DNA from: Acidobacteriota bacterium
GTDB lineage: Bacteria > Acidobacteriota > Blastocatellia > Pyrinomonadales > Pyrinomonadaceae
Assembly: GCA_019639175.1 (NCBI GenBank)
Contig: JAHBSK010000002.1
Span: 186,001 to 250,000 of the forward strand
DNA length: 64,000 nucleotides
Direction of reading: 5' to 3'
The notes beneath the pieces were generated by a model. That model searched no databases. It had not been told where the DNA came from and saw nothing but the letters and a program-made list of their open reading frames with translations. A program made the position numbers and the translations under genes. Below are positions 24,382 through 26,289 of the stretch, one piece after another. Every line of letters starts with the position of its first letter. Position 1 is the first letter of the stretch.

Positions 24382-24530
24382 AAATGTTCCTCACATCGGG
24401 TCTCTCGCAGATGGTTTGAGTCGATTTTATCATTTACGGCAAATATTTTGGGAAAATCAGGCGAAATGGACATTTCTCAATATGAGGGCTGTTGCTCCGC
24501 CTTGCGGGCGAAGCTCCTTTATTTTAAGAC

Positions 24531-24620
24531 CTTATCCGAAAAGGCAACCGCCGCATAGACGGCGGACGCAAAGCCAGTAGTCATCGCAATATTATATGAC
24601 CGTCCGGCTGCCGAAGTGAG
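24531..24620 (+). ncRNA. cyclic-di-GMP-I (GEMM) riboswitch aptamer
   Basis: The signature parts are in order. GAAAAGGCAACC enters P2. A 6-bp hairpin CCGCCG/CGGCGG follows with an unusual 6-nt loop in place of the GNRA tetraloop. GGACGCAAAGCC closes P2. The P3 stem is GTCAT/ATGAC (24580-24584 with 24596-24600), followed by CCGGCTGCCGAAG. A short P1 can form between CTTAT (24531-24535) and GTGAG (24616-24620). In known c-di-GMP-I aptamers the GGCAA-CC and GGACGCAAAGCC parts surround the ligand. The P1 3' strand overlaps the ribosome site of the next gene, so control of translation is plausible. Identified by eye, not by a covariance search. Confidence 0.82.
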
Positions 24621-25214
24621 GTGGATTTGTTCAAAAAGACCGTTTTCCCGATCATTTTTCTCGTAACGCTGATATTGTCAGTGTCTGCCTCGGCGCAGCT
24701 TTCTGCCGGAAACAGACAGGCGGTTTCCGTTGATCAAAACGGCAAGATCAGCAGCGTGCGGCCTCGCGGCGAGGCTCGCGGCTCCGTCGTAAAAGCAGAG
24801 TATGCGGTTTCGGACGACATTCGCCGCATAGAGCGTGCGGTATTTGACCTGATGAATGCCGAACGTTCTGCAAAAGGGCTTACCGGATTGAAATGGAGCG
24901 ACGATGTCGCTCGTGCGGCCCGCCAACATTCATCAAACATGGCTGCCGAAAAATTCTTCAGCCACAGAGGCAAGGATGGAAAGATGGTCGATGACAGAGC
25001 GGATCTTTTTGGCATCCGCTGGGCATCGATAGGCGAAAATATTGCCTTTATGAAAGGATTTTCCGAACCGGAGAAAAAAGCGATAAAGACCTGGATGGAT
25101 TCGCCGCCGCACAGACGTAATCTTTTGGGTCAGCAGTGGACCGAATCTGCAATAGGCGTCGCCCAGGGCGAAGACGGAAGCTATTATTTCACACAGGTTT
25201 TCATATCAAGATAA
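24621..25214 (+). CDS. secreted CAP (SCP/PR1-like) domain protein under a c-di-GMP riboswitch
   Basis: This protein is up to 197 aa. The start is either the GTG at 24621 or the TTG at 24627; GAGG at 24618-24621 suits the TTG, which gives a compact signal peptide (MFKKTVFPIIFLV...SASAQ). The CAP domain covers about residues 70-197: FDLMNAERSAKGL, ARQHSSNMAAEKFFSH, GENIAFM, WMDSPPHRRNLL and YYFTQVF, including the His and Glu residues of the CAP cavity. Bacterial CAP proteins are secreted and of mostly unknown activity. The riboswitch just ahead ties its expression to c-di-GMP, so a role in surface or biofilm life is likely. Confidence 0.9.
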   Translation: MDLFKKTVFPIIFLVTLILSVSASAQLSAGNRQAVSVDQNGKISSVRPRGEARGSVVKAEYAVSDDIRRIERAVFDLMNAERSAKGLTGLKWSDDVARAARQHSSNMAAEKFFSHRGKDGKMVDDRADLFGIRWASIGENIAFMKGFSEPEKKAIKTWMDSPPHRRNLLGQQWTESAIGVAQGEDGSYYFTQVFISR

Positions 25215-25268: not shown

Positions 25269-26165
25269 ATGCGGCCTGACGGATTCATTCTCCCATCATT
25301 TGCGAAGATAAATCTGCACCTTAAGGTGATCGGTAAGCGGCCTGACGGCTATCACGAACTGTGTACCGTCTTTCAGGCCGTTTCGTTGTGTGATGAGATA
25401 GAGTTTCGCACAGCCGACAGCCTGGAACTGACCTGTGATGACCCAAATATTCCGACCGATGAGAACAACCTGATAATCCGCGCCGGAAAATTGCTTCAGG
25501 ATGCCTATAAGGTCGGTCATGGAGCAAAGGTCCATCTTGTGAAGAACATACCTTCTCCGGGCGGATTGGGCGGCGGTTCCTCAAACGCAGCGGCGGCGAT
25601 GCTTGGCTTTCGCAGGCTTTGGGATCTGAAGTGTTCAATTGCGGAGCTTAGTGATCTCGCGGCGGAGCTTGGGGCCGATGTCCCGTTCTTTTTTCACGGC
25701 GGAACGGCTCTCGGAATAGGCATCGGTGCAGAGATCGACGAACTGCCTGACGCAGAGATCGAAAACCTCGTTATTGTCACGCCTCCGGCCGATATTTCAA
25801 CCGCTGAGGCTTATGAAAAGCTTGGGGCGCCAAACTTGACAAAAAATGAGGCGGAGCATAATCTTATTGTTTGCCGAAAATGGGCTGAAACTGCCTGTTT
25901 TCAGGACGGGCCGGTGATAAACGATTTTGAGGCCGCGATCTTTCCAATGTACCCGGAGGTCGCAAGAGTAAAGAGCACATTGCTCGGACTCGGTGCGGTG
26001 ACGGCGGGCATGAGCGGCAGCGGAGCAAGCGTTTTCGGCATTTTTGATAATAGAGAGACACGGCAAACAGCAATGAAAGCCCTTGGTGAGATACCCAACT
26101 GGCGAAGTTTTGCCGTAGCGGCTGTTTCACGGAAAGAATACCGTGAACGCCTCGGGATAAGCTGA
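25269..26165 (+). CDS. ispE: 4-diphosphocytidyl-2-C-methyl-D-erythritol kinase
   Basis: This 298-aa GHMP-family kinase phosphorylates CDP-methylerythritol in the non-mevalonate isoprenoid pathway. It shows the N-terminal SFAKINLHLKVIGKRPDGYHEL, the ATP-binding PSPGGLGGGSSNAAAAM (about residues 95-111), and GAVTAGMSGSGASVFGIF near the C-terminus. Length is normal. It leads into tRNA-Gln and prs, a neighbourhood (ispE-prs-rplY-pth) common to many bacteria. The start lies 55 bp after the CAP gene. Confidence 0.95.
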   Translation: MRPDGFILPSFAKINLHLKVIGKRPDGYHELCTVFQAVSLCDEIEFRTADSLELTCDDPNIPTDENNLIIRAGKLLQDAYKVGHGAKVHLVKNIPSPGGLGGGSSNAAAAMLGFRRLWDLKCSIAELSDLAAELGADVPFFFHGGTALGIGIGAEIDELPDAEIENLVIVTPPADISTAEAYEKLGAPNLTKNEAEHNLIVCRKWAETACFQDGPVINDFEAAIFPMYPEVARVKSTLLGLGAVTAGMSGSGASVFGIFDNRETRQTAMKALGEIPNWRSFAVAAVSRKEYRERLGIS

Positions 26166-26214: not shown

Positions 26215-26289
26215 TGGGGCGTCGCCAAGTGGTAAGGCACCGGGTTTTGGTCCCGGCATTCGTAGGTTCGAATCCTTCCGCCCCAGCCA
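26215..26289 (+). tRNA. tRNA-Gln (anticodon TTG)
   Basis: The acceptor stem TGGGGCG pairs with CGCCCCA. The anticodon arm is CCGGG-TTTTGGT-CCCGG with TTG at 26247-26249, the T-loop is GTTCGAATC, the discriminator is G, and CCA is encoded. It lies between ispE and prs. Confidence 0.96.

Follow-up and report, generated by a model that had tools for sequence, protein, structure and literature searches.

A predicted class I c-di-GMP riboswitch whose P1 helix would mask the ribosome-binding site of a CAP-domain protein gene in Acidobacteriota

A gene for a CAP-domain protein in an acidobacterial genome raises a question: does the short leader before it hold a genuine c-di-GMP riboswitch, and by what means would such a switch govern the gene? 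We examined the locus within a stretch of 64,000 nucleotides, here called the window (contig JAHBSK010000002.1, positions 186,001 to 250,000), for which an earlier note had proposed a GEMM-I aptamer directly before the CAP gene. The covariance search bears this class out: RF01051 (c-di-GMP-I, Rfam) matched the plus strand at 24533-24615 with 46.6 bits (E 5.7e-6; gathering score, 35 bits), and all 87 model positions were covered. The aptamer motifs listed in the note were all found, in the order claimed (Table 1); its span, 24531-24627, omits two bases of the P1 5′ strand. The site is the only c-di-GMP-I match in the host's 3.8 Mb genome. It occupies the predicted 5′ leader of the CAP gene, with 11 nt from the end of the aptamer to the start codon, a spacing that is kept in relatives.

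Table 1. Features of the riboswitch-CAP locus, in window coordinates
Feature	Position	Strand	Basis
P1 5′ strand, ACCUUAU, anti-Shine-Dalgarno	24529-24535	+	pairs with 24616-24622 in minimum-energy fold; anti-SD motif counts
Class I c-di-GMP (GEMM-I) riboswitch aptamer	24533-24615	+	cmscan RF01051, full-length model match, 46.6 vs 35 bits
Motif GGCAACC	24543-24549	+	sequence
G, specificity base (c-di-GMP vs c-AMP-GMP)	24543	+	model position 11 of RF01051 alignment
P2 hairpin, CCGCCG (24548-24553) with CGGCGG (24560-24565)	24548-24565	+	Rfam alignment, fold
Motif GGACGCAAAGCC	24564-24575	+	sequence
P3 region, GCC/GGC base, GUCAU (24580-24584) with AUGAC (24596-24600)	24573-24608	+	Rfam alignment, sequence
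Motif CCGGCTGCCGAAG	24604-24616	+	sequence
P1 3′ strand, GUGAGGU, holding Shine-Dalgarno GAGG (24618-24621)	24616-24622	+	sequence; P1 pairing across 60 leaders
CAP-domain (SCP/PR1) protein, 195 aa, signal-peptide-like N-terminus, TTG start	24627-25214	+	PF00188; start matches relatives
ispE (GHMP kinase), 54 nt 3′ of CAP gene	25269-26165	+	PF00288/PF08544

Might the match be fortuitous, a motif-like sequence that does not regulate the CAP gene? The minimum-energy fold of the window leader is of ordinary stability for its composition (z -0.12), as would be expected of such a sequence; for this reason, the evidence for the aptamer is taken from the covariance match and from conservation, not from fold energy. 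Both weigh against chance: the match is of gathering level, and dozens of species-level genomes have the aptamer in this same place, ahead of an orthologous CAP gene. We thus regard a chance match or a wrong target as already refuted, its probability being negligible. As far as sequence comparison can establish it, the predicted class I c-di-GMP riboswitch of the window is confirmed as genuine.

The distribution of the riboswitch was followed through the family (Pyrinomonadaceae and relatives, Acidobacteriota), where c-di-GMP-I matches occur in 79 of 119 genomes, at 144 sites. The flanking sequence was read at 143 of these sites; a CAP ortholog follows the aptamer at 49 of them, in 46 cases within 50 nt, and at most CAP-linked loci the start codon falls 10-11 nt past the aptamer. 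Sixty riboswitch-CAP leaders were readable within the family, and every same-genus CAP ortholog with a readable leader has the riboswitch (37/37). Fifteen same-genus genomes seemed to lack it, but in 11 of them the leader does have it: the absence was an effect of the score threshold, most such leaders falling below the Rfam cut-off of 35 bits. The other four genomes lack a complete CAP ortholog. A covariance model built from the 60 CAP leaders (R1) matched 53 of 77 CAP loci of named genomes at E 2e-13 or better, a set in which many are training genomes, so that the test mainly adds names and negatives. R1 served only as a finder because its automatic consensus structure omitted P1. The nearest named relative is Acidobacteria bacterium ACE_ACI3 (89% CAP identity); the named set also includes OLB17 and an Aridibacter famidurans assembly (L219), a cultured relative in which the leader is present.

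The 24 CAP loci without the leader belong mostly to one ortholog group, which includes Pyrinomonas methylaliphatogenes K22 and in which ispE is still the next gene. Since this leaderless group exists, the CAP gene can evidently live without the switch, and about four gains or losses of the leader are required to account for its distribution on the CAP tree. Outside the family, none of 13 RF01051 matches in other families of the class was linked to a CAP gene. A motif scan with incomplete coverage, taking in seven loci from the phylum outside the family and one from within it, found the aptamer pattern at one locus, without a CAP gene.

The earlier note's target also stands: the next gene encodes a PF00188 protein (70.8 bits vs a gathering score of 21.1, full domain 1-117) with a signal-peptide-like start. 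GTG at 24621 is disfavored as the CAP start; the starts of relatives lie 10-11 nt past CCGAA, and GTG would overlap the Shine-Dalgarno (SD) sequence. Three close relatives (L032, L045, L047) have CTG as the apparent start at the conserved position, while TTG is used in the window and some others. Residues H101, H113, E137 and H162 are invariant across 45 CAP orthologs and may be the conserved cavity His/Glu of the superfamily. By sequence, the closest solved structure is 4ifa, an extracellular SCP-domain protein (E 3e-22). The NCBIfam models for YkwD (TIGR02909) and DalA (NF052539) share the CAP domain with the window protein and align with it at 86.5 and 55.3 bits, far under their cut-offs of 171 and 200 (the latter an equivalog cut-off), making it a relative and not a member of either group. 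The outer-membrane lipoprotein DalA binds peptidoglycan, and normal division requires it (PMC10470522). From the 4ifa match, the likeness to YkwD and DalA, and the peptidoglycan and division role of DalA, a periplasmic or surface role in the envelope is plausible for the window protein.

The ispE gene follows the CAP gene closely and is possibly co-transcribed with it, and the switch may affect ispE as well. This neighbor is next in 40 fetched aptamer loci; of 77 related CAP loci, 71 show an ispE homologue within the flanking sequence fetched. A tRNA (26215-26286; anticodon TTG, Gln by inspection) separates ispE from a ribose-phosphate pyrophosphokinase-like gene, and the order CAP-ispE-tRNA is common to many relatives, whether the riboswitch is present or absent. 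Upstream of the riboswitch, a MerR regulator and then a P-type metal ATPase are divergently oriented. The host genome has eight GGDEF domains. An Acido-Lenti-1 RNA (49.2 bits; gathering, 37) was found at 686-731 of L169 (G000 contig C2), about 270 nt upstream of that genome's second CAP paralog, which itself has no riboswitch.

We then come to the expression platform. GAGG lies 5 nt from the TTG start, inside the 3′ strand of P1, in agreement with the overlap of P1 and ribosome site described in the note, and P1 is present in the unconstrained minimum-energy fold of the window. Across the 60 CAP leaders, 86.9% of P1 cells hold standard pairs, as compared to 29-59% after the opposite strand is shifted by 1-3 columns. 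The cognate 5′ and 3′ flanks of 150 family aptamers pair with a mean of -6.67 kcal/mol vs -5.12 kcal/mol for permuted flanks (z -11.1; 0/10,000 permutations, with genome relatedness left in). The 5′ flank carries an anti-SD motif in 53/60 CAP leaders vs 1/67 aptamers remote from a start codon, whose P1 is of other sequence (e.g., GAUUGC with GGCGAUC). Where the SD has drifted (to GAAG in G002, G003 and G006, and to UAAG in G042), the 5′ strand is altered to match, and the cognate pairing of these four leaders comes out first to third of 58. When the CAP leaders are taken by themselves, both P1 strands are nearly invariant, and the strict permutation gave consequently modest support (434/10,000 or 166/10,000, relatedness again left in), and column-wise covariation of P1 in these leaders was not above that of shuffles.

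In ligand-free folds of the CAP leaders, the SD is paired with the P1 5′ strand with a mean probability of 0.36 (0.78 in the window), and P1 without ligand is marginal by these calculations. Just 5′ of P1, most same-genus CAP leaders (e.g., L153, L154, L155) have a small hairpin of variable sequence, which in the window lies at 24493-24515. Its stability has a mean z of -2.5 over 36 same-genus leaders and is weak in the window (z -1.1); it may mark the 5′ end of the transcript or stack on P1.

How would such a leader act? A transcription-terminator platform was rejected, as the start codon is only 11 nt from the aptamer; the sole plus-strand terminator-like site (24608-24624, 5 pairs, tail ATTTGTTCAA) overlaps the start region. 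The note's argument that the leader has no room for a terminator and acts on translation is thereby supported, as it is by the position of the SD within P1. We propose that the expression platform is the aptamer's own P1, with the 5′ strand serving as anti-SD and the 3′ strand carrying the SD of the CAP gene. Without ligand, a P1 of 6-7 bp with G-U pairs would be marginal, and ribosomes would load; upon binding c-di-GMP, the aptamer would close on P1, GAGG would be hidden and translation of the CAP gene would be turned OFF. The prediction of an OFF switch follows from the SD sitting in P1, the helix that closes the ligand-bound aptamer, and we hold it quite likely that this class I riboswitch works in this manner.

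The direction of the switch cannot simply be assumed, because V. cholerae has class I switches that work in opposite directions without terminators (PMC6366702). With class I switches of both signs known (PMC6366702, PMC4744006), the same riboswitch might have the opposite sign, the ligand rearranging the leader and freeing the SD. A secreted CAP protein might be required at the cell surface when c-di-GMP is high; moreover, GAGG is already paired somewhere in ligand-free folds (mean probability 0.80), partly with partners outside P1. That the SD belongs to the very helix that closes upon ligand binding speaks against an ON switch, which we consider improbable. With the OFF direction, low c-di-GMP would allow CAP to be made and the sessile state would repress it, the reverse of how a biofilm-induced factor behaves. 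Of the link to surface or biofilm behavior that had been suggested from the letters, the pairing of c-di-GMP-I with CAP stands, but the OFF reading would have the protein repressed in that state.

The identity of the ligand was considered through the specificity base, a G in the window. We equate this position, by our own count of the numbering, with G20 of Vc2, and we take position 20 to be the pocket base that differs in c-AMP-GMP responders. In such responders, a single base of the pocket is commonly different (PMC9481103). G is present in 58/60 CAP leaders, the exceptions being A in G007 and C in G004; a truncated site in G005 also has C. These three belong to one sub-lineage (L063 2960-3054, L064 and L066 for G004, G005 and G007, respectively), and their bases hint at a possible ligand switch there. 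In G004, the ATG start sits in the P1 3′ strand where the SD would be. In several CAP leaders the aptamer is weak or off-consensus (C in G004, A in G007), so some of them may not bind c-di-GMP. These exceptions, together with low Rfam scores for several same-genus aptamers, would accord with an aptamer that binds c-AMP-GMP, or with one that has lost binding and persists as a relic or a constitutive SD-masking hairpin. We deem this very unlikely for the window, which has G at the specificity base along with the invariant GCAA and CCGAA; these two motifs are conserved over the 60 leaders, though the sequences of P2 and P3 vary freely. Accordingly, c-di-GMP would be the ligand of the window aptamer.

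A GEMM-I variant also occurs in leaders of pilM (type IV pilus) in other families of the class (L249 991-1079 on the plus strand, L250, L251, L253). It has A at the specificity base (CAGAGCAAA), of the c-AMP-GMP type; in the window's family, the pilM leaders carry G. This difference suggests a putative ligand switch for the pilM operon between families of the class.

What is new here is the target: the riboswitch class is known, and the CAP gene is a new target of c-di-GMP-I for which we found no earlier description. The literature searched, whose coverage is incomplete and does not prove absence, contained no paper joining a c-di-GMP riboswitch with a CAP-domain or cysteine-rich secretory protein; the one paper to bring together c-di-GMP, riboswitch and Acidobacteria surveys candidate RNAs in general. 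CAP proteins occur widely in bacteria, and most have no established role; the riboswitch would supply one of them with a signal, a predicted direction of control and a phenotype that can be tested. The roughly 60 natural leader variants, which include some with a changed specificity base, are on hand for questions of ligand choice and P1 strength. More tentatively, a lineage-wide c-di-GMP OFF switch might repress a peptidoglycan-associated CAP protein (perhaps ispE as well) and so tie envelope remodeling or division to low c-di-GMP in Acidobacteriota, with the specificity change in G004, G005 and G007 hinting at a ligand switch; this is a proposal that we would sooner doubt than assert.

The aptamer architecture and the conserved core of the window are those of Vc2, the type member of RF01051. 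Vc1, upstream of V. cholerae gbpA, promotes expression (PMC6366702, PMC4744006); it shows neither terminator nor anti-SD, and how Vc2 acts was described as unknown in 2016 (PMC4744006). The window differs from both in its target, a CAP gene, and in having the SD built into P1. P1 acting on the SD would be an explicit translational mechanism for c-di-GMP-I, a point that had not been settled for the V. cholerae examples (PMC4744006).

Tandem c-di-GMP-I riboswitches have been counted at 347 doublets (PMC9481103). The CAP leaders of a few relatives (G026, G027, G028) resemble these in having tandem aptamers, the second with the SD in P1, whereas the window has a single aptamer. Tandem aptamers about 270-480 nt apart were also observed before genes for large secreted proteins (L083, L087, L095, L104, L106, L143, L144 and others). 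These targets are of 800-1000 aa, one of them read as beta-helix plus DUF4214, and in many of these pairs the SD lies in P1 of the second aptamer.

In the predicted sign of its output, the window comports with the class I OFF switches of Clostridioides difficile (e.g., Cd1 of flgB), whose output is lower at high c-di-GMP. The C. difficile switches act by transcription termination (PMC6366702), whereas the window has no room for a terminator and its SD would be masked. The closest likeness in this respect is to anti-RBS translational riboswitches, in which an anti-SD of the leader gates ribosome access (PMC9481103), as is predicted here; in contrast to those, the window's anti-SD and SD are the aptamer's own P1 strands, with no separate platform stem.
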